Both the position numbers and the translations under genes were made by a program. 64,000 nt of DNA from Tubulanus polymorphus (taxonomy: Eukaryota > Nemertea > Palaeonemertea > Tubulaniformes > Tubulanidae), in NCBI RefSeq assembly GCF_964204645.1, contig NC_134030.1, positions 10,414,278 to 10,478,277 on the forward strand, given 5' to 3'. The notes beneath the pieces were generated by a model, which saw only the letters and a list, made by a program, of their open reading frames with translations, did no database searches and was not told where the DNA came from. Shown here one piece after another: positions 6,802 to 47,104 of the stretch. The first letter of the stretch is position 1, and every line of letters begins with the position of its first letter.

Positions 6802-9800
6802 TCAAGGAAACCCGTCGAAGTCCTCGTCGGCGATTTCCTTAGCGCTTTCTAACTCTTGTTGCTCTCTTTCTCGCCGATCCTACAAGAAAAGAATTACGAT
6901 CGAAATTATCGACGGTTAGGTTTTTATACGAATTCCGGCGCTGTTGCACGCGGGTTAACTGTTCGATCTTTGATCAGTCATTCTACGAACACGCGGAATA
7001 ACGAAGTCCATTATAACGCCCGTGGTCGCTCTTAATGCTAAAAATCTTTCCGAGAACGCGAATATACACCAAATCTAACCGGAATCTTACCATAATCAAA
7101 TTTGTAACTTTTCTGATATTTCCCCGACTCTTCACCATATTTCCATGATAGAATTAGAAGTTATTCTAAGTGGGGCTCATTTCTTCTGAAAAGGTTCTTG
7201 TACAACTTGTACCACTCTTTGTACCGCCAGCAAGGATGAATACAAGACACCAGGACATCAAAATTCCCTAATTTTGCCCCAACTTTGAACGAGTCGAGAG
7301 TTCCCTGATTCCCGCAGGCAAAAAGTAAATCTGTATCTGTAAGATCGGCGAAATTTTCTGAGTCCCGATGGTGGTGTTATAACAGACTTCAGGTGTAATA
7401 CTAATTTGAATTTTTGATTCTTTCAACGACCTCCAGCTATTTAGCTAACAAATGGATGAAACCTTGAGGAAAATTGAAAAATATTCGCACTAATCGAAAA
7501 TTGCCATTTTAGTATACCGGTACTCAAATACGATAAACCTTTTCATCCAGATCAGATTCTTCTTAGCAAGGAAATTTCATTTAATACTTTTACAATCAAT
7601 TCAAACACGAACTGAGTTTTTATTAGTGCTATTAATCAAAAGTAATAAATAAGTTACTTTTATTAGAACGCAATGAACGGATGAAAAAATAATAGAGATT
7701 TTCGACGACGGCCTACCAAAATAAATCATACGCACCATCGATCTAGGTAAAGAATACATATTGAACTTTACGAAATGGCATAAAATTACTGATAGCGTTT
7801 CATGATAATAAAAAAATATATTTCACTGAATATTTCTAGATATTGATTAAGGAAAAGCCATTTAATGTCTTTTGGCCACATTACACGGTAGACATCGCTT
7901 GCGCAGTTTGCAACCTGGAACTGACCCTCACAGACATACTCTTCAACCATTATTCCAGTTTCTGATCATCCAAGCTTTCAGAAGTTCACCTCAACAAGAT
8001 ATTTTAGATTGAAAATGAACTTATGAATGAACTAAATGCACATTATATCATTTTTGTCACCACACTTTCAATTAGTGATCAAGACTTCACACTTCTGAAA
8101 GGTTTCAATTGTACTCTTCTACTCTTTTTTCTTTGCATTCATTTCGACCAAAATACGCTTTACCTATTTCAGGGTTCCAGTTGCTCAAAAGTTGGTTAAG
8201 AGTTAATCCTTTCAGTGCACCTACACCACAGTGGGATGTATAAATCGGTGGATTTCGCTAGTACACCGCATCTTGGTGCGTGGATGTTATCAGTAATTAG
8301 TTGGTTGTCATCTTTAATGAAAGATGGCAACGTCTGTCAAATGTATAGTGAAATATTAGTAACTAACGATACACTGCAACGCGATGTAGAAGCACCGAAA
8401 CGGTACGCATGTTATTCCCCACACTGCGGTGGAATTTCATAAAATTTTCAATCTCATACATCTCTGTCACTTTCAGTATCAATAAGTCAGCATTGTAAGG
8501 GTTAACCAGCGGATAAATACCATAGTGAAAATTGAATTTGCTTTGTTACGAGGTTATTTGTCCACCAGTTTAACTCCACTAACCAACTTTTGGGCAACCA
8601 GCCTCAGAACAGCGTAATCTGTTAACCAGACAGTAAGCCTGTAAAGAGTTTCTAAAGTTCTGGATTTGCCATCCCTAAACCAGAATGCATTTGATTGAAA
8701 CCTGGCTTAAATGTCAGAGGCGAATATCTGAATGAATGGGGTGGTTCCAGGTAGCAGCAGCTGAGCGGAATTGTTTGACATGCTTGTTTGTCGGACAGAA
8801 CACACTTTTTGTATACAAGAATATTTCAACAAATATCTGAGTGCATTAAGATTAACTGTATCAGCCATCTTTAAGTGAAGTGTCACATAGATTTTGGGAA
8901 TTTGCGACACTATGTTCTCATTTTAAAATATTGGGTGGTCGAGAAAATATGGTTGCGCGACATTATAAGGGAGAATAGATCGAAAATCATTCATTAGTTT
9001 TCCATTTCTCTTTCTTACCTCGGCTGATTCTAAATCCTTATTGTACGACTTCGGTGGAAACCTCATAGCCTGAAACAGAGACGATCGTCATAATTAGTTC
9101 ATTTACTACGAGCAAACTCAGTGGATCCTCACTTGCCACAAGTGGAATCGTTGATTGGTCCCCCATAATACGGTCAGATTGCACGGGTGGCCACTTTCCT
9201 CTCAAATCCCCTGATTTATTTATGTGATAACACGCAAAATTCCCTGAGTGAATCAGAGAAATTTTTCGGTTTAAAATGTAACAATTCATTCATTTTTCAA
9301 TGAGTCTCGAACTGGTAAAGTAACACGAATCAGGGATGATTCATTTATAACCGTATTTTCCGGCCAATAAGCCGACTCGGCCAATAAGCCGAGGGCAGTT
9401 TTTTAGCCTAAAATACATGGATTTCATAAAGCTTCGCCCAATAAGCCGAGGCCCTTCATCAGAGATTTTAATTCACTGATTTGTCAATTAGTTCGTCTTT
9501 GACGATTTAAGAGGCTGACAGTAGCGCCCGCCGATGTGTGAGAGTGCTGTGTATACTATCATCGCCGAGTGACTGTGCTATATATAGACTCACTCAGCTG
9601 ATTACTATACACACAGCCATACAAGCAGTACTCGGCTCACTGCTGATTTGCATATATACTAATGTATGAACTGACACGTGGTAGTACGATGAACTCGTGT
9701 GTTATATAAATGTATACCATTGCCGCTGTGCGGTGATGGAACAATCAAAGTAAAAATAAAATAGTTCAAAATAGATTATAATTGGTAGTAAATAATGACC

Positions 9801-12800
9801 TCAAATAAATATCGACCACTTTTCTTGATTTTGACGATCATTGAGAGCATATGAGTAGCATAGATCAGGAAGTGATTTTTTATGTCAGATCGTATCCGCC
9901 CAATAAGCCGATCACGATATTTTGGGTAAAAATCTAAGGCTAGAAAATCGGCTTATTGGCCAGAAAATACGGTACATACACATACAATTTGAATTTTTCA
10001 TCATTCCCCCCCATGTACCCCAAAATCAGTCATTTTTTATCACATTAAGCATTATAGCATGTAATTGCACTGACCCCTCCCCTTCCCCAAGTGTGTATGT
10101 AATAAATGAATGACCCCTCATCCGAATTGTCAAATTCCCCGAGTTTTCCTACATTTTTCTGGATTCTAGGACAAATGCCCCCCCCCCCGAATAAAATCCC
10201 TTTTGATTTGGATTAACACCACCTAAATACTTTACTTAGAAATTCATTTGCATATTATTGAATATAGATTTATAAGATATAGAATTACTGATGTTGTGTG
10301 CAGATCAAAAACTTTAAATCAGCCCTTGTGTAATCATAATTCACTTACCAAATTAAGTTAACTTAAACTTAATAAGTCCACTCATTAGTGCATTAGTTAA
10401 CGTTGGCGGATTTATTGGAATTCGTTTTAGAGTTTCTTTAGCCAATCAAAAACTTCAAAGCAGTCCTAATTAGTTAGAATTAGTTCACTTTGTCTAATTA
10501 ATTTGAAATAAATATCAGTGTTACTTTAAGATTAAAAAGATTTAATTTGGAGGGGCAATTGTCCGGGGGCAGTTGTCCGGGGGGGCAATTGTCCTGATCC
10601 CTTTTTTCTGATTCCCCCCCCGAGTATGGCAGGTTTTCCAGGTCAGCAGCCACACTGCGGTTGCACACGTTGAAACTTACTTTGACCGACTGATTATGTA
10701 TATCTAGACAGAATGTGATTCGCTGATGGAAGGCGGCCATCGGTTCACGCGTACTGTATATATCGATGTTCTCTTTTGACTGTACGTAGCCCTTCTCGTG
10801 GTCGATGGTAGCTTCGATCACTCCATCACGAATTGCCTGTAACAAAAACATAAACGAATGTTATCATCGTCCACTTCAAGGATTTGTACGTACGTAGTAA
10901 CAGGCGACGTGATCACACAAACATTTTCAATCAAGGCCAAACATTAACACGGGTGCCAAATGGCCGGTGCTGGTTTTATGACCAAAACCTAATTATAGCG
11001 AGGGTCAAATTATTGTGCATGAATTGCAACTGGTTCTTGAAGTGACTCACTGCGCTTTTTCATAGCATTTGTTTAGTATCGAGTGAGCAGTTTAATTAGT
11101 GGTCTAATTAGGCACGGGCTAAATTTTACTTTGGTCTGATCCGGCTATAGCATATCCTTGTCTTAAAATGAAACCAATAAAAATAATAATAAATAATAAT
11201 CAATCATAATTCACTGTATCTATCTACAGCTTTGGCACCACCTGACTTTTTTTTTCAGCCAACTGCATAAGTCTAGACATACGTGTCACCTACAAACCAC
11301 GCACCTTAGCTACGATGAATTCGGCATCTTCCGGACTATCCAGTTGTAATTTCTGAGCAATATCGGACAGAGAAATCCTTGAGTACGACAGATTGATCAT
11401 TCGGACGCCCGTTTTGATGACGTTATGGCGTAATCTGATGATCAACGTATATGTGTGCTCAGCCTGGAACTTCGCTCCGAATTTCTCCAACACTTCGTTG
11501 AACTTTGCCAAATTACCAGTGCGCACAGCTGAAAACATATAATCAAACGATTTTACCACATAGCCAATCATCACAAGAGGCACATTAGAGATTAATTTAT
11601 TTCTCTACTTGGGTGTTTAATAGTCATTGATAGATGATGTATTGAAAAGTTCATTCGATTTTGATTGAATTATAAGGAAGCATCCCTACAGATCAGTCGC
11701 TACTGGACATGAGGAGTTTTGATGGGAGAAAATTTCATATTTCAAGGAAGCTCCTGCATCACTTTTAAATCCCTATTATGATAGAATACACCTATATCGG
11801 TACTGTTTATATCGGTAAACCGCTTATTTGTTGGTTTTATATCCACATTTTTATCTTTGACGCGTTTAACAAGGTTTCTTCTTTAAGGTTACAAAAAGAT
11901 CCTGGTTCCAACTTTACTGATCTAGGCGTAGTCTAATGTACGACTTCCTAAGTATCTTTTTTCGATTTTCTAAAAATTGAACGAGTTTACAAGGAGCTTC
12001 CAACATTTTACTAAAATTAAGTTGAGTTTCAAGCAATTCAAGAGCATTTTCCATCTAGAAGGAGTTTTTATGGAATCAAGTAGTCCTATGGACCCTGTGT
12101 AGACGAAATTGAAGCGTGGGTAATGGTGTATCTACTAGTGCAACTAGCGGAAAACAGATTGCAACAGTAGCATTGCCGGTAGTCGTTTCATATTTCATTT
12201 TACTTTTTCAAACGAGTTCGGACATTTTTTTTGTCTACCTTGAGTAAGCTGGAAGTACGGAGCTAGCGTTTTCTTCAACGACGTCTGTCTGAATACGGAG
12301 CGTTCAGGAATTTCCCCCAGCAACAATTCGACGACGATGAGAACTTTCTGAACGGTTTGTTTGAATCCGACGGCCGTCTGCTGCGGCGCTTTCCTCATCG
12401 CCGTCAGTAAGTGTTTATGAGCCTCCGAGTACTCCAACTGCATAGCTTTGATTCTTCCTAGAATATGGAAATAACATCGATGATACACTATATCTTCATT
12501 ACCAGTACCCGTCACAGTGGCCACTTTCTGCTATTTACCGCCCCCTGTTTCCCTTTTTTTCATATATTTTCATCATTCATCATTTATGAAATTTGAGAAA
12601 TCATGGCTCTAAGTTTCAATTGAATTTGAGAAATCTGGCATCGTTGTCTAATGGACATTGTTGGCATTTTCGCCTTGCTACAGGCAAAATCCTTTATTGC
12701 GCTTATCGACTGCGGTGTCCTCATTAACACTTTCATTGTGTTTACACCATAGCGCGGTGTATAGATCAATGATGACCTTTGCTAGTACACCGCGTATTAA

Positions 12801-15800
12801 TCACAGTGTATTATTACTAATACATGTAGTTATTAGTTTCTATCTCCACTAAAAGATCACAGCACTGTAAAACGCAGTGAAATATTAGTACCTGACGATA
12901 CACCGCACTACGGTGTAGATGCACTATTATAGCGGTATGCCAGCTAATCAACACACTTAAAAATTTTCAAATTGTCTCCAGCAATTTTGGGTGTCAATTA
13001 GTCAGCACTGAGAGGGTTAAGTGAAAGTTCTTGTATATCAGACAGTACATAGGTCTTGTATATCCCGGTTTCTTACCTATGTAGTAAAGATATCTGGCCC
13101 AGTCGTTGTTCGACACGCTTTCCGGATACGTCGATTTCGAAATCAGCTTGTCGGCTTGATCGTACAGGTTGAAGTGTAGGTAGTTTCGCAACAGCAAATT
13201 CAGGATCATCGCTTGTCCCTCGAAGTCCGACCTCAACGTGCACGTGCGAAGTCGCGAGTGTAAAAAACTGCAACGAGAAAAGATGCGTATTTTAAAGACC
13301 TTGAGATTCAAAACCATTATTTTTGTTTATATAAAATAGATACTCATTGCGAGTTACCTAAGGAGGCCAGAAAATCTGGGACCAGTTGGTGAAAATATGT
13401 TTAAGAGTTGACCAGTGGATAGTTGATGGACAGTGAAAATTATATTTCATTGTTACTATGGTATTTATCCGCTGGCTATCTTTAACAAACATTTGAGCAA
13501 CTGGTCCCGGATCATTATAACTGATAGTAGTTACTTGTATTCAGTATGAAAAGAGTTAAAAATATCTAATATCTGATATGTTGTTGTACCCAAGTCCGTT
13601 ACAACAAGGAAAAAGCTTCTTTTCACCGCTGATCCTCAACCCAATGAAGTCATATATACTGAGTATACATTCCCAACGCTAATGAGTAATACAGAGCCAA
13701 GCTCTTCGCATTCAGTCCGTCCTAATGTTCAACCATAGTCTTTAACTCAACACATCAACTATCATCATATGCAGGAGTGAGGTATCACATGAGTTGATTT
13801 ATGTCTTGTATTTATGCACACAGTACTTTCAATAGAAAATAATTCTAACATATTATTTTCAGCATTGGAATAAAATGGTTTCTAATCTTTCCATTTTCAA
13901 TTGGAAAATATGACAATTAACGATTTATTGTGTCCAAAGTGTATTCAATCATTCCAATGGGGGTATCCAAGTGTTACTCATACAGATGTCGACCCCGAAA
14001 AAATCACACAATTTTCTAAGGCCAAAATCCAACTTTTACTCAAGCACGGCAGTTATTACTAAGTGTTATTTGAAAACTTTATTACTGATAGCCCTTTATC
14101 ACTGAGGTAAGATGTAGAAGGCATATATGGCCTTTACAGTCATACTTTTTGCATCAGTCCGTCCTAGTGTTCAATCATAAGTTTTTAACTCAACACATCA
14201 ACTGTCATCATATGCAAGAGTGACGAGGTATCGCATGAGGTGATTCATAAAATTGTAAATATTGTACGCGGTACTTTCAATAGAAAATGATTCAAATATT
14301 CTTTTAAGCGATGGAATAAAACGGTTTGATAATCTTTCCTTTTTATTCATTGGAAAATATGACAATTTACTGGAGTGTGCAAAGTAGGCCTATGTGGAGA
14401 CGATTAAAAAATCTAATTTAAAATTGGATGTCTTTTTAATCACTGGAATGAATTACATAGTTTAAAGTTGTCGGTTTACGGGGTATAAAGAATGGTCTAT
14501 CATGTGAACGTTATAAGTTTCTACCACCAACCACCCACCAGATAATAATCTCAGAATTTTCAGTAGTAAAATCGTTGCTTGCATCAGATAAGCTATGTAA
14601 GCAATTTTATTCATTGTGTTCTGGTGATACACTCCCATAAGAGGTGTCAATTTAAATCATCATTTGCAAGCGGAACAACAAAATTATTCTAATAAGGGTG
14701 TCTGAGTGTCGATAGCAGGGGCAGAACCAGGGGGATTTGTGAGACTTGTACAACTCTACTTGTACTTAAATTTTCTTAGTGCCTTTTTTCATTTTGTCAA
14801 CAAAGATTATTAATAACTATGCATTTCAGTGCAGTAGTGCCACTTTTATTGCCTTTTTGGACATGAAAATGCCTTTTTGGATATGACAAGTTCTTCTAAA
14901 CTGGCCCCTCAGTGGAGGAGTAAACCTATATTGCATTTTTGGACATGAAAGCTCCATTTGGGATGCGACAAGTCCTTCAAAATTTGCCTCAGGATCTGCC
15001 CCTGGAAAGATGCTGACCCGGAAAAAATCACCTGTTTTTTTTTCGGTCTAAAATTTGACTAACTTGCCTATAGTGTAAAGTGGTTATTTCAAAGTGTCAT
15101 TTGAAAGCTTTATCACTGATAGCACTTTATCACTGAAAGTAAGATGTAGAGGGCATATGGCCTTTACAACCACACTTTTAGCATCAGTCCGTCCTAGTGT
15201 TCAATCATAGTTTTTAACTCAACACATCAAATGTCATCATATGCAAGAGTGAAGTATCACATGAGGAGATCTATTGCAAATATTGTACGCAGAAAATGAT
15301 ACAAATATTCTTTTTTTTAACAATGGAATAAAATTGTTTTTAATCTTTCCCTTTTCCATTGGAAAATATGACAATTTATAATTCACTGTGTACAAAATAT
15401 GTACTGGTAATCAAACAATCCCAGTTAATTGGATGCTTTTTAATCACTGGAGTGAATTACATAATAATTTAAAGTTGTAGGTTTTCAGGGTATAAAGATT
15501 GGTCTATCGTGTGAACATTGAGTAGCTACCTTAAACCACCCACCAGAAGAGAATGTCAGAATTTTTCAGTAGTTAAATCATTACTTGCATCAGATAAGCT
15601 ATGTAAGCAATTTTATTCATAGTGTTCTGATGATACACTCCCATAAGAGGTGTCAATTCAAATCATCATTTGCAAGCGGAACAACGTTATTCATACCGTA
15701 TATTCAATCATTCTAATGGGGGTATCCGAGTGGGGACTTGGGACCAGGGGGACTTGTGAGGCTTGTACAAGTCAATCAATTTTTTCAAGTGCCCTTTTTT

Positions 15801-21800: not shown

Positions 21801-23935
21801 AGTCGACTAGTCGTACATGTACTTAATGAAACCGAATGTCAGTTAGTCGGAACTATAGTCCTGAAATAGTCGACCACGCGGTTGAGCACGGTTGCAGTAG
21901 TTTGGACCTATTTCCAAAATGGCCGACGATGTGAAATATCTTACGACCAAATTATAGCGCGTTCGGTTATTAGTTCCGACAACAAGTCCACTAGCGAATA
22001 GAACTGAAGTTCGCCCTTGTTGTTCTTTGACTTTCCCTCTGACTGATTTGCTAAGAATTCAACCAATCAACTCAATCCAATACGAAAAAGACATGGACGG
22101 AAACTGTTTGATTTTACGCATTATCTTGTAGCAACCTCATCTGATTTTTTGGTTATTTTACAAAATTCACCGACTTGAAAAAAATATCTACATTTTCTGT
22201 TAGTGAAGGAGTTTTCAAGGAATCAAGTGGTAGGAAGCCGGTTATAACCAACACCGAAGGAAGAACGCAGTATGGTAAAACTCGAATACTTACATCGGCG
22301 TAACGTTCAGTGTCGACGAGATGAATCAATAAGAGCAGATGCATGTAGATTTCAATCTCCGGCAACGTCGAAAGACTCTTAGCCGAGCGCAGACGCAGCG
22401 GGGTCTCCGTTCCATCGGTCTCCATCGGCTAGAAAATACAACAACAGACGAGTGTCGTGAGAACTTAATCGGAACATTTTCTAGCTAGCTTAGGTGCCTT
22501 AACCCTTTCAGTGCGTCTACACCGCAGTGCGGTGTATAAATCAGTGATAGATTTTGCTAGTACACCGCACTGCGGTGTATTGATGTAATTAGTAATTATC
22601 TCTTGAAAATGGCAGCACCTGTCAAACATAGTGAAATACTAGTAACTAACAATACACCGAACCGCGGTGTAGACGCACTATAGTGATATTCCCGTTATTC
22701 AACACACTAGGGTTGAATTTTTAAATTTTTCAAATTATCTCCAGCACTATAGGGTATTAATTAGTCAGCACAGATAGGGTTAAGGCCACATGCCCAATAA
22801 ATTGTACTTTTCATTATTAATAAACCAAACGCTACTTTTGTATTAAATAATGAGATCTGACTGTGTGATGGAAAATTACTAATGAGCTCTAAATTAGTCG
22901 TTTATTTATTCTTCACTTTGTTTACGTAGTTCACTTCCAACCCGCAGTTGGCGCTATTTTGGACGGTATCTCTGTGGTAAACACAAGCACGTGTGTTCTC
23001 TAAGTAGCCTACATAAAATTGATAAAATCAAAGACAACATCATTTGTTCGCTTTAATGATGGATATATAGTACGCCCAATAATATATGTTTATCATGTCA
23101 TATATGATGGCAACAACACATGGAAGATTTTTTGAATTAATTTATTCTAAACTATTATAATAGTTTAGAATTCAAAAATCTTCCAAGAGGATAAAATGCC
23201 TTTTGAAATGTCTACTGAAATGACTGGAAAACTGTCAGCGTTCAACAGAGATGGCATCAGAAACACGCACCTGCACACAGAAACAATAACGTGCTGAAAT
23301 TGCTGATTTAAAAGTCTTAATACTCAGAAGCCTGAACTTAAATTCAAATCAGGAGCATATTCATAATTTGTGAACGTATTACTTTATAGAATAACTTTCA
23401 CACGATATTCTATTCATTGGGCATGTGCTCTTTTAATTTAAAGAGGTACTAAATAATAGTTATAAACCGAAGTAGCATCCTATTACCTCATCGAGGTAGC
23501 TGAGTAAAACTTCTTTTTGCGCCGACGAACTACTCGGCAAATATCCATTGATGCATTTTCTCAGGATCGTGTGGTTGAGTTTCTTCCGCAGGGACGCTAA
23601 ACCTCGTAAGGCGCGCGTAACGAAACGCGGCTCTTTCGTCGACACGGTTTTTTCGATGTGTTTTACATGTTCCTTGACATCTGAAAATTTCATAAATCAT
23701 TTGAGACCGAAAAATCATTAAAAAAATCATCTCTTGTAACTGAGTTAAACGGTATAAACACAGACTATCATCGAGCATTTGATGATTCGACATTTTTCGA
23801 TTGGAAAATCGTCTATAATGTAATTTGCAGCCCACCTTCGATAGTCAACAATTCCGTGTCGACTTTAGACTCTTCTTTCGGTTTTTCGGCGTCTTTTTTA
23901 GTGTCTTTTTTCTCTTTTTTGGCCGTAGTAGACAT
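6802..23935 (-). CDS. PSMD3: 26S proteasome non-ATPase regulatory subunit 3 (Rpn3), complete
   Basis: This is a subunit of the 19S lid that helps hold the lid together through its PCI domain. Coding exons in transcript order (minus strand): 23935-23836, 23680-23487, 22428-22294, 21655-21519, 13267-13077, 12457-12239, 11528-11305, 10836-10681, 9069-9019, 6879-6802. All junctions are GT-AG and all phases close, giving 494 aa (human about 534). Residues 5-28 are a Lys/Glu/Asp-rich leader. Family landmarks include [14 protein letters not shown] (about 31-44), [136 protein letters not shown] and a C-terminus ending DFDGFP. The PCI domain covers roughly 245-430. The ATG lies in GCGATGTCT with a stop-rich region upstream. 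Introns are 155-2139 bp except intron 4 (13268-21518, 8251 bp), a repeat array. The short N-terminus is the main difference from vertebrates. Confidence 0.97.
8171..8608. mobile_element. MITE carrying a nested TTAA-flanked MITE
   Basis: The outer element has ends CCAGTTGCTCAAAAGTTGGT (8178) and the inverse, ACCAACTTTTGGGCAACCAG (8582-8601). Between AAGAGTTAA (8198-8206) and TTAACCAGCGG (8502-8512) sits a second element (8207-8501), whose ends CCTTTCAGTGCAC and TGTAAGG match the TTAA MITE at 22499-22783. The TTAA is duplicated on both sides of the inner element. It lies in PSMD3 intron 9. Confidence 0.8.
9350..9973. mobile_element. 624 bp inverted-repeat element with AATAAGCCGA sub-repeats
   Basis: The left end ACCGTATTTTCCGGCCAATA and the right end TTGGCCAGAAAATACGGT are inverse copies. 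CCAATAAGCCGA recurs at about 9364, 9380, 9429 and 9899, with its complement near 9948. There is no coding frame longer than chance. It sits in PSMD3 intron 8. Superfamily not assigned. Confidence 0.75.
10909..11152. repeat. Dispersed element, copy of 48682-48994
   Basis: It starts GTGATCACACAAAC, then GGTGCCAAATGGCC, GAATTGCAACTGGTTC, GTATCGAGTGAGCAG and TAATTAGGCACGGGC. The same words occur in the same order at 48682-48994, where both inverted ends (TAAGCCGCGATCGCAC and GTGATCACGGCTATTA) survive. This copy is truncated. A further right-end fragment is at about 31058-31115. In PSMD3 intron 7. Confidence 0.7.
12724..13020. mobile_element. TTAA-flanked (piggyBac-like) MITE, copy 2
   Basis: TTAACACTTTCATTGTG on the left and GCACTGAGAGGGTTAA on the right, with degraded copies of the 19 bp palindrome at about 12744, 12785 and 12898. 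It shares its internal order with 22499-22783. In PSMD3 intron 5. Confidence 0.75.
13368..13509. mobile_element. Host MITE without nested insertion (empty site)
   Basis: Ends GGGACCAGTTGGTGAAAAT and the inverse, CATTTGAGCAACTGGTCCC, about 44 bp of imperfect terminal repeat, with TTAAGAGTTGACCAGTGGAT uninterrupted at 13401-13420. It is the same element as the outer one at 8171-8608. A fragment also lies at about 46385-46444. Confidence 0.75.
13680..20990 (-). repeat. Degenerate tandem array (complex satellite) filling PSMD3 intron 4
   Basis: One long unit recurs with indels. The block GCATCAGTCCGTCCTAGTG starts near 14151, 15181, 16084, 16857, 17245, 18229, 19774 and 20653, plus a diverged copy near 13709. 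The block CTTGCATCAGATAAGC starts near 14578, 15584, 16440, 17633, 19423, 20158 and 20906. Spacing varies from about 390 to 1550 bp, so units have been deleted or expanded. Within several units lies an hAT-like inverted pair, for example CAGGGGCAGAACCAGG at 14716 and ATCTGCCCCTGG at 14993. Two units (16968-17185 and 18341-18600) share an extra segment beginning TTGGTTCTTGGTGTAATGAT. Short frames in it (for example 16506-16886) are repeats of one another and not genes. Strand is arbitrary. Confidence 0.85.
21780..22020 (+). mobile_element. MITE, inverted copy of 62755-63095
   Basis: CCGAATGTCAGTTAGTCGGA and the 10 bases after it (21832-21861) are the exact reverse complement of 62960-62989. 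Flanking blocks also match inversely, such as GAGCACGGTTG and GCGCGTTCGGTTATTAGTTCCG. The ends AACTTCGGTTATC and CTGAAGTTCGCCC form an imperfect terminal repeat. In PSMD3 intron 3. Confidence 0.8.
22499..22783. mobile_element. TTAA-flanked (piggyBac-like) MITE with three 19 bp palindromes, best copy
   Basis: TTAACCCTTTCAGTGC on the left and GCACAGATAGGGTTAA on the right, 285 bp including both TTAA. It contains the palindromes TACACCGCAGTGCGGTGTA (22518-22536), TACACCGCACTGCGGTGTA (22561-22579) and a third with two arm mismatches (22653-22671). TTAA target sites with CCC/GGG ends are the hallmark of piggyBac-type transposons (established); no transposase is present. In PSMD3 intron 2. Confidence 0.8.
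22786..23431. mobile_element. Inverted-repeat element with internal foldback
   Basis: CACATGCCCAATAAA at the left end and TTCATTGGGCATGTG at the right end are inverse copies. In the middle, 23122-23184 folds on itself, with a perfect 22 bp palindrome CTAAACTATTATAATAGTTTAG-type core inside GGAAGATTTTT/AAAAATCTTCC arms. It abuts the TTAA MITE at 22783. Confidence 0.65.
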
Positions 23936-36200: not shown

Positions 36201-39200
36201 AACGGATTTTACCGTAAATCTATCATCTACTATATTTACCAACAGGTGGAGCTACAATTATCGGATACAATGCAGGAACTGGAGCGCGAGTTCAACGCCG
36301 GTGAATTTCGAACGTCGCCGAGTCACAGTCAGTTGAACGATTCCGAAAAGCGTTCGTCGATTGCCTCGTCGGAAGGAGGTTCGTCGCACACGCACAGCCC
36401 CGTACTTATTAAAGCGTCGCCGAAACACAACTCGATTATCAACGAGGAGACGAAAAAATCGGAAAATAAATCAGAAGGTTAGTTTGCAGAAGATCGGATG
36501 GATTCTAGGACGCCCCTCGCACAATTCCCCTTGTTTACTATTGGAGTTGATAAGTAATCATGAAATAATTGTGCATTTAGCAAAGCGTTTGCATAAACAA
36601 TCTGCGAAAGGATTTCCAAAGTACAGTGAACTATTAAGTAACAGTTTTTGTAATTTGCCTTCATGCTTATCTGTACTGTATCTGTCTTGCGGCATGCCTG
36701 GGATCTCTGTTCATAAGCCTATGGAAAATTGGGTCTATGCCCAGTGCAGGAAATAGACCCACAAAAACGAGACCGATTTGTCGATTATGGGTTTGCGCAG
36801 GCGTTTTCCGCAGGTGCACACTGTGAAACAAGAAACACCAAAATGAACCTACAGCGCCACTTGTCTTGTGATTGGAAAAGTATTAGTTTCATCACATGAT
36901 CCCCGCATGTTGTCCCTGATTGGTTATTGAATTATAGCATTTCTTGTGTAGCTATTCTGACCATAGCACACGGCAATCAAGCAAATGTCTCTTGATGAAA
37001 TCATATTGGTTTTGCCGAAAAGTATTTCGGTAAACCATGTTTGATGTTTCTTTGGAACGTGCACTGTTGTGAAAGAAGCCAGAAAAGAATTTCACCGGTC
37101 ACCCTTGTTTAATGTCTTGTGGCGTGCGCTAGGTTTTAAGCTAGCCCTCTTTTATCACTACCTATATGCGGGGCTTGACTGTATCTAGAATTATGTAATT
37201 CAGAAAGATATTTATCATTCTCTCTAGTATCATGTCAACAACTCGGCAGGGACTCGAAACTGATGGCATCGAGACTGCCATACGGCAGAAAACCCTACGC
37301 ATGCAGCTAAGATGATGTCATTGTTACCCAATCAAGAAATCCCGTTTCATTTTAGCCCGGGTTTTCCATTTAGAGTTTATCTGTGAAATTTGATCCGGCG
37401 ATTATACAACGAGCAATCTTTTGTTGCTGCACATTTACACGCGGTTAACCTGTGCCTGTACCTGCGCAATTGGTCCAGTGTGGCAGGGTTTCATACCATG
37501 TCATCGTGTTCGAATACCTGCCGATGTTGGAATTATTGCTGCTTACATAACTGTTTCGAAGCCTTCCTTCATTACTTAACTAGCCTTTACTCAATCGAAC
37601 TGCGTATGCTTCTTCTTGCGAACATGATTCAAAAGGTGTTTGACATTTTTCAAAACCATAGAGGCTGACGTGACACATATGACGTCATTATTTGTTTGAC
37701 CATCGTAAATATGATGACGCCAAATGTACAAAAAAAAAGCATGATAAAAATGGGGATTTAGAAACTTTGGGTATCTGTCATTCAAATGTCCACATGAGGC
37801 CGATGAATAAGATGACAACAGATATATCCCTGAAACAAATTAACCAGAACTCTCATTCCAGACCTCAATGGTCACCCATTCCAGACCTCTATGGTCAATC
37901 ATTGTTATTACACATAACGAATCGGGCAGCAGCACGAGCTAATGCTAAAAAAATCATGTATGAAACATTCTCTCCAGAACAAGCAATGAGATACAAGCAG
38001 ATACCAGGGGCCATTTGCTCAAAAGTCAGTTAAAGATAGTATCAAGAGAATCTCACAATAATGAAGAAAAATAAAGTCCGAAAATGTTTTGTCAACTTTT
38101 CGACTATATCCTTAGACCTACCGGTAATAGGCCTAGTTATCTTCAGTATTCCTGTAGATATTGAAGGTATTCCTGGAGTTGGCTACCATTTTCAGTACAG
38201 AATTACTTTCGCCACTTAAGAAGTCTCGTATTTCGCTACCATGCTGAATAAGCCCCGAATAAGCCTTTAATAATTCAACCGTGTGACCATTTAATATTGT
38301 TCTAAAATCAATGCCACGTAAGCCCATGAAAGGAGGATTGGAGTAAGTTATTGAAAAAAGTGATAATCGATAATGTTATTTTTTTGGAATTGTAGAAAAA
38401 GAAGATGTAGAAAATCATACGACGGAAGAAACGGCTGTCGAGGAGGAAAGCAGATACGAACCGATCGAGGTGACAAATTCTCCTGTGAAAAAAGTAAGCT
38501 AACGAACCTCAGCATGTTGCGGAGTGTGAACGCATCATCTCTACTTCAATATGTATAATTTATGGGTATAAATCCAGCAGCCAATACACTCGCAGTCAGT
38601 TTCACAGTTCTTCGATAAACAATTTAGTTGTTTTTCAATTAGATTTGAGCTTGGTTTTGATTGTGATCCAAAACTGAAAATTCATTGGAGAGATATAAGA
38701 TTCACTTTCTCCCTCGCTGAAAATTCATTTGCTAATGACAAAAATTGATTCAAATTCGATTGAAATACACAGTTGAACCTCGTTTACACGATTCTGTTCA
38801 AGACAAGACCTGTTTATTACGATGATTTCTAGCACGTCCTGGCTAAGATATTTATATCGATCAAGATTTGGATAATACGAAACCCGTTCTATACCATGAT
38901 TTCACTTTTGCCAACAAATTTCGTATTAACGAGATTCCGCTGTAGAAGAATTTGTAGCCCAGTTACCGGGGGCATAACTGCATAACTGCATAACTTAGTG
39001 CTAACTGTGGTTAGGCAGAAATCGCTGTTAGCTAACCGTTGTCTTCGTGCGGCCTCTTATTTTAAGTTGGTTAGCCTAACCATGGATAAGCCACTAACGA
39101 CGGTTAGGCTAACTTGGTTTTCCTGCGCCCACCCCTAGTGAATCATATCGCTCGCCACGGTAGTGTTGCCGGTGCCCCCATTTGACACTCGAGTTTGATT

Positions 39201-42200
39201 ACTGATAGTTCATTTTCAATCGGTTTGACTTCGTAGTCAAATCTCAAGTTGGTTTGACTTCGTAGTCAAATCACAAGTCGCAACTGTGGACCTGGCTCCT
39301 GATTGATGAGAATGTAAAATCATACATTTTCTTTAAATTTTGTGATCATATAAGCGCGAACATTGCGAAATTTCTTCGTCTGTTTCGTGCTACATACGTC
39401 AGGGACCGCTCATATCGGATCTGACCAACCAAGGAGGATGCGTTGAAATAATTTGTATGATTTTAGAGGCTCAAAAATACCGCTCGCTGACGAGTATTTA
39501 CCCTTTCACTGTGTATACCCCGCTATGCTATGTATAATCCATCCACACTATATTGCATCTACCCTGCAGTCCGTGTAATTGTTGAAATTAGTTGGAATCT
39601 CTATTGAAAGACGGCAGCACCTGTAAAACATTGCAAAATCATATCAACTAATGATGCGCGACACTACCAGGTAGACACGATACAATGGTATGCCTCGTTT
39701 CCCGAATTTGTTTGGCAGTATCGGTTGGTTAACTGCCAACGGTTAAGGGTTTTCGACTTGAGCGGAGTCTACTGTATTGGGGGGTGATTTTATCCTATCG
39801 ATTTGTAAAGATCGTCGTTTTTCACCATTCCATATTCCTCTTGTATCTATTCCTGCATTGTTATCCTCTCCGAATTTGTAACAGCACCTGTTTTTCTGGC
39901 CTTGTTTTATCGACGGGTTGATGATGTTTTCATTGGAGAAACGAAAGAAATATCTGAGATATGTCAATTTATTGACCTTAAACAATTAAATGTCATTTTA
40001 ATACGTTATTGGAAAATTGATATTATAAGGGATTCGGTTAGTTATCAACATAGTAGTTCCCGTCGATAAAACTGGGCCCAGGTGTAAGCAAGTACAGTAA
40101 ACCATGTTTGAGTCTGACGTTTTGGATCCGGGAGATCTTTTCAACTTCGAAAAATTCAGATTTTGATATCATCTAAGCTGCGCACACGCAGGCTAGTGCG
40201 GAATGGTTTGTCTCGATGCCATCAGGTTTCGAATCCCTGCCAGGCATTGATGCTACTCTGTGAGAGTTCATTTCGATCAGACGAACGCACGGTTTACCGT
40301 ATTACCGCATGTTTCCCGTTTCTGCGGTGTCGGTGGCTCTCTTCCTCGTGTCGTGAAAAAAACTTATGCATGCTTTCGGCGATAATCGTTTGTTTCAGTC
40401 GACGTTTTATTTCCAGGTGGAGCCACCGAAAGTCGACGGCTACGACAACGTGTCGATGCCCGGTCCGCCGCGACCGGACGACGCTCCACCAAAGCCGCCT
40501 CCGCCGTCGACGCCGACGTCGGCAAAAGCGCCGGCGAAGGTTGAAGATGATAATGAGGAGGACGAAAAAGAGAAATCCGTTTACGTCGTCGACGAGGATT
40601 CGAGCGCCGTCTATCAAGTCCCGACGAGCAACGAGCCGACGGAAGACCTACCGGAAGGTGCTTTGTACAAGGTGATAGCCACTCACCCGTACGCGGCCGT
40701 TGACCCCGATGAGCTGAATCTAGAGAAAGGCGACATTGTCATTGTAATCAAATTCGAAAATGAAGAAGAACAGGTAGGGCATGATATTACGTACTCATTT
40801 ACGCATATTCATTTATTCTTTAAATCTACGGTGAACAGGGTGGCCACTGACCTGGAAAACTTGAAGAATAGGAACATCTAGAAATAATCGGGAACAAAAC
40901 GATTCTGGGAATTCAAGAAATTTTAGCAAAAACCTGGAAAACTCAGGGAATTTGGATAGAATTACAACAAGTTATAATATATTGATACATAAATGAGTAA
41001 TGATGTATTAACATTAATGTTGTAATAATACACCGGGAAAAAGCTTAAAGCTCGAATTCCTTCATTACTCTCACACAAAATCACCCACTTACGCAGAGAA
41101 TAGCAAGTATAACAAAGAAGTAAAGAGTGATAAGATTTTCCAAGCAAAAAACAAGATTCTGAAGGAGATATATATGATAATTGACACATTACTGTATCAC
41201 TAAATTTTTTATCAGTATCGAGACAAAAATTTTTTTTGTTAGATGATTTGAATGCTATATTCCATTATCAAGTCGAGAGTAAGGGGTGTGTAGGTCGTAT
41301 TGTTGCCGGGTGTTATACTGGTGAATAGCCGTATTATTAGTAAATAAGTTGTCAAAGGATTTGGAAGGGTATTTTTGTCATAGGCCTATAGATACATGAG
41401 TTTGGCCTTTTGGTGATGTCTTCTAACTTAAGTATATTACTTGACTCTTGGTAACAGCCCTAATGGCCTTTTTCTGAAGTTGAAATGGACTATTAATATT
41501 TGTAGGATAATTACTTCCCCATACAATGTTACAATATTGTAAATAAGGAAAAACCATTGGGTAATACAGTTTAATCAATACATGATTTGGCAAGAAGAAT
41601 AATAATTTGCGGATGATGACAACACTTTTAGAAATTATTTTTGGCAATTGATTGTATATGGGTTTTCCAGTTTAGATCCTCATCTACCTGTACCCCAAGA
41701 AATTTAGACGATTTTACTTGGAAGATTCTGCTATTGTCCATAAATAATCTAAAATTAGGTTTTTTTCTAGCTCTACTAATGACTATATAACTAGTCTTCG
41801 AAATGTTTAATGGTAATCTATTACATACAAAGTAATCTGAGAGACTTTTAGTTTCATTATTAACAATATCCTGCAATAGAATTGGATTATGGCTGGAAAA
41901 AGTATTGGTATCATCAGCAAACAATAGATACTGAAAAATTTCAGATGCATTTACACATTCATTGATATGCAGAATAAAAAGCAGAGGACCCAAAATTTAT
42001 CCTTGAGATATTCCACAAGTAATATATTTGAAGTTAGAAGTTAGATTATTAAACTTGACTGATTGTGACCTCTGATACAGGTAACTTTTGAGCCAGCTCC
42101 CTGGCAGTCCTCTGATACCGTAATATTCCAGTTTTTTAGCAGGACTTGATGATCGATGGTATCAAACACTTTGGATAAGTCTAGGAAAATGCCAATGGCA

Positions 42201-45434: not shown

Positions 45435-47104
45435 TTATACATGTACTTAAAATTTAAATGTACGACTTGATAAACTGAAAGTCATTGATAGCCATGTTTT
45501 CCATACAGAGACCTACTCGAAATACTTAAGTTCCTACTTTTTGGAGCCTTCGCGACGAGACACCAATCAACAATTTCAATAGCATCAGATTCTGAATTCT
45601 TACTTCATCTTTGAGGACAGAGTTTTTCTTTCAATACTCAAAGACGATGGGTTATTTTTTCATAGGTGCACTCATACTGCACTCACGTAGTAGTATGTAT
45701 GGTATGGGCATTGCCACGGACGAATTTGATGGAACTATAAGGCCAAACAGGCGTTTGTAGCCATCTCGCAAGAAAATTTTGAAGAATTCAGGCATAAAAA
45801 AGAAAAGAAAAAACATTTTCCGAGCTCATTTTCCGAGCATTATTTCCATTATTCCAATTATGGGATGAAATGAATGCATCATCGATAGCAAAAGCCTGGA
45901 ACTTTGGCATTTCTAAATCAGAGAAGGTCCTGCTGGTGTCGCTACTATGAACAGCTACGTGATATAGTGAAATTCTTAGTATTAAGTAAAACCAATCCTT
46001 TTCAGATTAACGGCAGAGCTCGGCGAATATTCCGTAATTATATTTGCGATTATCGGCTGCCCGATTAAGATCGTAGTCGGTTCTTTGCCGCTTAACTATA
46101 CGCTATTACTAAGGCGTAAATCATGCCCTTAATTCTCCCATTTTAGAGAGACTTGTACGCTCTGCCGTTTAGAGGGAACCGAATTGCCGATGATGATGAT
46201 GATGATCGCTGAAATTAAGCGCCGTTAATGGCTGTTATCGCATTATAATCTGCGCGTAGTAAAGGTTATTGACATCATCTCCTTGGTTAAGTTAAGGTTA
46301 ATTTGCCAAATAGAACGAACGGTAGACAACTGATGTGGTTTGACCACGCGAATGATGCTTGAAAAGATGATTGTTTGATTCTGTTAACTAGTGGATAGTT
46401 GATGAAGTGACAATTAAAAGTTCGTTGTTACTATGGTATTTATCCGTTTATGCAATAGACTCTTCCAAAGTAAAAAAAAAACTGATGAATAAGTGATATC
46501 AGTGAAAAAGCTTGCCCGAGAAGTTTTACGCATTGTTTTTGTAGAAAAGAAAATATTTCGGCTAGAAAATTGATACCTTGTTTCTCCTTTTCCGTTGAGC
46601 TTGGAGGTTGACCCAGCCGGCTGGCCGGCCACCCTGTACATGACCATTTTCTTGAAAATCATAATCAGGCTAGCCATAACAGACCCGGCAGTTAGATAGA
46701 CATCTGATATCCGATATACCCGATAGGTATGAATTGGATTATAAAATTCATTGCTGTTTACGAAATGAACCGTCCGATTAGGAGAAACGAGGTATCATTT
46801 CATTCTAGCCGTAGTGTTGGATTTCGTCGCTTGACTTGCCAACAGTTGGAAACTATGTAATGTTCAATTTCATGATACTGAAAGTTCATCATTAATGTAT
46901 CGATTTCTGATTTTCTCGTTGATTATTTGAGTCTCAACACTCGAAATCGATTTCTTGCCATATCGTTAGCGTTGCTGCACATGTTGACAGGTTTTTCGAG
47001 CTGGTCGGTTAAGATAATTACGAACAGGTTGCAGCCTTCTTTATATTGTAACATTTACTTAACTAGTCATATGTAACATTTCATTGATTATACAATACGT
47101 ACAG

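Follow-up and report, generated by a model that had tools for sequence, protein, structure and literature searches.

A TTAA-flanked, probably piggyBac-type MITE nested in an older palindromic MITE in Tubulanus polymorphus

Small non-autonomous transposons may land inside one another, and the nested arrangement described here is almost certainly the result of a non-autonomous piggyBac MITE moving into a TTAA of an older palindromic MITE and duplicating that TTAA. It lies within a 64,000-nucleotide stretch of the Tubulanus polymorphus genome, hereafter the window, to whose positions all coordinates refer unless otherwise given. The inner element is 295 bp long (8207–8501), has TTAA on each side, and splits a near-palindromic MITE spanning 8173–8604. 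Read from left to right, a host stretch ending in AAGAG is followed by TTAA (8203–8206), by the inner sequence, which begins TCCTTTCAGTGC and ends GCATTGTAAGGG, by a second TTAA (8502–8505), and from 8506 by host sequence beginning CCAGCGG. The two TTAA copies represent the left and right halves of the target duplication. The left part of the host, including its terminal inverted repeat, occupies 8173–8202 and the right part 8506–8604; outside them stand CAG at 8170–8172, a possible target duplication of the host that was placed by hand and fits the family’s preference for CWG flanks, and CAG at 8605–8607, which agrees with the same preference. The inner element lies on the plus strand, while the host parts, the TTAA copies and the flanking CAG triplets carry no strand assignment. 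The host limits were read by hand; a script put the left limit one base inward of this reading. The original prediction had described a host element interrupted by a foreign sequence, and direct reading of 8171–8608 confirms the interruption as it was quoted.

The boundaries of the inner element were examined by searching the 267.8-Mb genome with 8171–8608 as the query and scoring 40 of 1895 first-look candidates. The segment from query position 33 to 335 (TTAA to TTAA) is the exact extent of 16 of the 40 scored non-self matches, and 33 of the 40 fall within 5 bases of it on both sides. The left end of the family was found at 2141 places with a 27-base pattern allowing at most 3 mismatches, against 0 for the reversed control. 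A consensus built from 38 copies measures 296 bp when its TTAAs are counted, and its 12-bp inverted repeats, CCCTTTCAGTGC, are perfect, with 12/12 bases paired. The ends of the consensus also contain a number of short palindromes of the TACACCGCASTGCGGTGTA type.

TTAA flanks are a property of the family. They occur at both ends of 31 of the 38 copies in the consensus set, from which alignments short of both ends were excluded (L017, a second partial copy in L030, and a partial copy in L026). An overlapping set was drawn from the fetched DNA and comprises 45 distinct copies of nearly full length, each with 100 bases of flank; 37 of them have TTAA at both ends. This bears out the earlier claim of insertion at TTAA with duplication of TTAA; the stricter expectation that every inner copy would be so flanked held for those 37 and failed for the other 8, which lack a perfect pair. 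Among the 7 exceptions in the 38-copy set, the variant ends are TAAA (three times), GACA and TCGA on the left and TTGA (twice), CTAA and TTTT on the right, and 6 of these 9 variant ends are one base from TTAA. Within the window, all three full inner copies have TTAA at both ends: the nested one and two further plus-strand copies at 12724–13020 (81.9% identity to the consensus) and 22499–22783 (94.4%). An inner-family fragment was also seen at 39574–39699.

Regarding the age of the insertion, the nested copy is about 81% identical to the consensus, close to the value of the copy at 12724–13020, with the copy at 22499–22783 at 94%. It has no close relative in the genome, its best match reaching 77%. 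The insertion looks old. Because the copies chosen for the consensus were those scoring best against the window copy, the latter may also be a member of an old separate subfamily. Two local accumulations were observed elsewhere. Locus L026 holds three inner copies inside about 1.2 kb, and at G000:C11:8909867-8937541 an inner-element end joined to TTAAAGATTGGATA recurs in eight identical matches on a single strand at intervals of about 3–7 kb, an array that is an inner copy carried along within a larger repeated unit.

The order of the two insertions follows from host copies that lack the inner element. The host is a near-palindromic MITE, one subfamily of which has a consensus of 127 bp with ends GGGCCAGTTGCTCAAAAGTTGGTTA, and its arm occurs at 695 places genome-wide (30-base arm pattern, at most 2 mismatches). 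The proof of the empty site had originally been placed in the copy at 13401, which reads GTTTAAGAGTTGACCAGTGG. That minus-strand copy (13379–13507) is indeed uninterrupted, and the segment 13378–13511 folds much better than shuffled versions of it (z −6.9), but the copy reads a decayed TTGA rather than TTAA at the exact site, and its best alignment to the window host runs along the opposite palindrome arm and reads ATAG. We therefore retain it as support and not as the proof. The minus-strand fragment at 46383–46446 has GTTAACTAG at the corresponding place, and the fragment quoted near 46388 reads GTTAACTAGTGG. At 38008–38038 there is also a piece, 31 bp long, of one host-family end. Better empty sites, with TTAA, are found at L047 and L048 (GTTAACCAG), L061 (GAGTTAACCAG) and L064 (AGAGTTAACC); a single-TTAA empty site is present for the window copy in L047, L048 and L061. 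With such empty host copies, the predicted order, host MITE first and inner element second, is upheld.

How the host copies were sampled affects how their counts are to be read. The 90 fetched host loci represent 84 places (6 being repeat places), and they lean towards empty copies insofar as the query was an entire uninterrupted copy for 30 of them and a pattern through one arm’s site for another 30. An earlier tally of 70/70 uninterrupted host loci was discarded as biased to empty copies, given that 60 of the 70 came from site-spanning queries and passage through the other arm was possible. No such lean affects the right-part host query (8502–8608, 107 bases), which does not span the site; it found 39 other places, and the 35 examined are among the 90 loci (5 shared with other queries). 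In all 35, the host runs uninterrupted through the window site on at least one arm, where it reads TTAA in 16, ATAA in 14, CTAA in 4 and T-AA in 1. Since the host is palindromic, an alignment may simply follow the arm that escaped insertion, and inner matches beside the host were therefore also sought. These occur in 5 of the 90 loci and adjoin host sequence in L186 alone. This count weighs on the reading that the composite is one element, in which the inner sequence would belong permanently to the interior of a longer host family. The window and L186 do show the two sequences joined, as such an element would have it, but the single adjoining copy in L186 sits at another TTAA and is inverted, and inner copies occur at many unrelated TTAA sites. 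A fixed composite is accordingly rejected as having a negligible probability, and the outcome named beforehand as refuting the nesting, inner sequence fixed in host copies everywhere, is not observed.

The class of the inner element requires more than its target site. In the original prediction, TTAA duplication was taken as the piggyBac-type signature. The assignment stands, but through the ends of the element: TTAA alone is no proof, because Kolobok also targets TTAA according to PMC6004289, and it is the CCCT end that separates the two. The inner-family ends are CCCT and match the description in PMC2872659 of inverted repeats, 12–19 bp long, that terminate in CC[C/T]T. A Kolobok-type MITE would share the TTAA target, as Kolobok and T2-MITE do, but PMC6004289 gives Kolobok ends as RR/AGGRR, unlike CCCT, and several sampled piggyBac elements of this same genome also end in CCCT. 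On its terminal sequence, the Kolobok reading is rejected as very improbable.

The genome also carries piggyBac transposase genes. At least 120 genome matches to the piggyBac transposase profile (PF13843, DDE_Tnp_1_7) were found, many in stop-free frames. Among 30 sampled genes, 11 have paired TTAA and inverted ends with at most 4/14 mismatches, and a twelfth has an end pair with longer flanks, plus two more copies of its family; the other 18 had no end pair at the threshold of 4/14 mismatches. Three autonomous piggyBac elements (G000:C1:14325823, C3:14189089 and C8:9236568) have TTAA flanks and inverted ends like those of the MITE, with 2/2, 2/3 and 2/2 mismatches to its 12-base end, respectively, although the ends are not identical. 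The nearest autonomous ends (CACTTTCACTGC, CCCTTTCGCTGC and CCCTTACTGTGC) match the MITE end at 10/12 bases. No autonomous element with exact CCCTTTCAGTGC ends was present among the 30 sampled genes, whose 12 end pairs all differ. A search with an end pattern designed to skip intact MITE ends gave 87 places, the nearest listed transposase being 70 kb away; distances were measured to transposase start points on the 12 large contigs apart from contig 6, on which the pattern has no place. The MITE interior was found in the flanks of the sampled piggyBac genes only at L118, as a MITE copy beyond the element’s end. The mover would be one of the genome’s piggyBac transposases or one since lost. In the proposed mechanism, a piggyBac transposase encoded at another locus would act on the inverted repeats of the inner element, which would then insert at a TTAA already part of the older palindromic MITE, and the insertion would duplicate that TTAA.

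The host family has received the inner element more than once. In L186 (G000:C10:2451400-2452250), an inner copy at 73–368 with TTAA at both ends is inverted relative to that of the window; the host sequence TTAAAGATAACCAGCGG follows it directly, and a decayed host end, its left end set by eye, precedes it. The insertion site is a neighbouring TTAA, a few bases nearer the host’s end than that of the window, and L186 is thus the second case of the inner element inserting in this host family. We also searched the joined flanks of each of the 45 inner copies against the fetched DNA for uninterrupted paralogues. Besides those of the window, two joined flanks matched such paralogues in other palindromic repeats. 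For L035 the empty paralogues are L047 with TTAA and L107 with TAAA, and for L109, whose inner copy has TAAA on one side, the paralogue is L065 with TTAG. A comparison of L065 with L106 as an empty site of the host MITE itself had gaps at the junction and was left unused.

Such recurrence raises the question of whether TTAA-rich palindromic MITEs are favoured landing pads of the inner family rather than chance targets. Shared use of one host family in the window and L186 speaks for this, as do the positions of the L035 and L109 copies in other palindromic repeats. Junction patterns add three candidates in which the two junctions share a strand and fall at the first host TTAA (C3:21274111-21274395, C5:19122672-19122977 and C8:499472-499780) and a less certain fourth (C10:11021792-11022086), with a rough chance expectation of 0.8–1.2 insertions for the 695 strict host arms. 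However, the junction patterns admit a wider, uncounted set of host copies than those 695 arms, so that we claim repeated use and no preference. Moreover, the estimates of TTAA density differ (140 versus 223 bases per TTAA), the inner copy number is a lower bound, and no clear excess is seen. Landing pads in this sense are unlikely. A related proposition is somewhat more doubtful still: the family would dock preferentially in short palindromic MITEs that have TTAA close to their ends, and one class of small transposons would in this way accumulate inside another.

As for the host itself, its ends and flanks suggest a likeness to NuwaI, a group within the PHIS superfamily which, according to PMC4482050, is characterized by GGG ends and CWG target duplications. 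A member would also be expected to have a partner that encodes a DDE transposase and a Myb/SANT protein. The host consensus, GGGCCAGTTGCTC, likewise starts with GGG (the window copy starts with GGTTCCAG), and CWG flanks are shared. Exact three-base flank matches were found in 17 of 40 host copies, 16 of them CWG, a level reached by 15 of 2000 shuffles. The central W of CWG is equal in 20 of 29 copies (shuffle p 0.048) or, in another of these overlapping sets, in 20 of 31 (16.1 expected, p 0.11). A full duplication should give nearly all equal, and 20 of 31 falls short of what a simple duplication of 3 bp would produce. Many host-family copies in L047–L116 have CWG in both flanks, as does the host copy in the window.

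Comparable events have been described in corals. According to PMC2872659, coral piggyBac MITEs (the CMITE families and CMITE-IN) carry CCCTTT at their ends and are flanked by duplicated TTAA, alleles that have or lack the insert are known, and one insertion lies at the TTAA of another small element. The left end of CMITE family VI, CCCTTTCACTGCCA, is of the CCCTTT type like that of the inner MITE, a likeness by description; the coral elements given in the same source are about 100 bp long with a conserved internal region, whereas the inner MITE is about 295 bp. A MITE nested in another MITE is ordinary animal genome history, and the process is well known. What the present locus contributes is good evidence of a target duplication, together with two insertions whose order is clear, and both can help in annotating the genome’s repeats.
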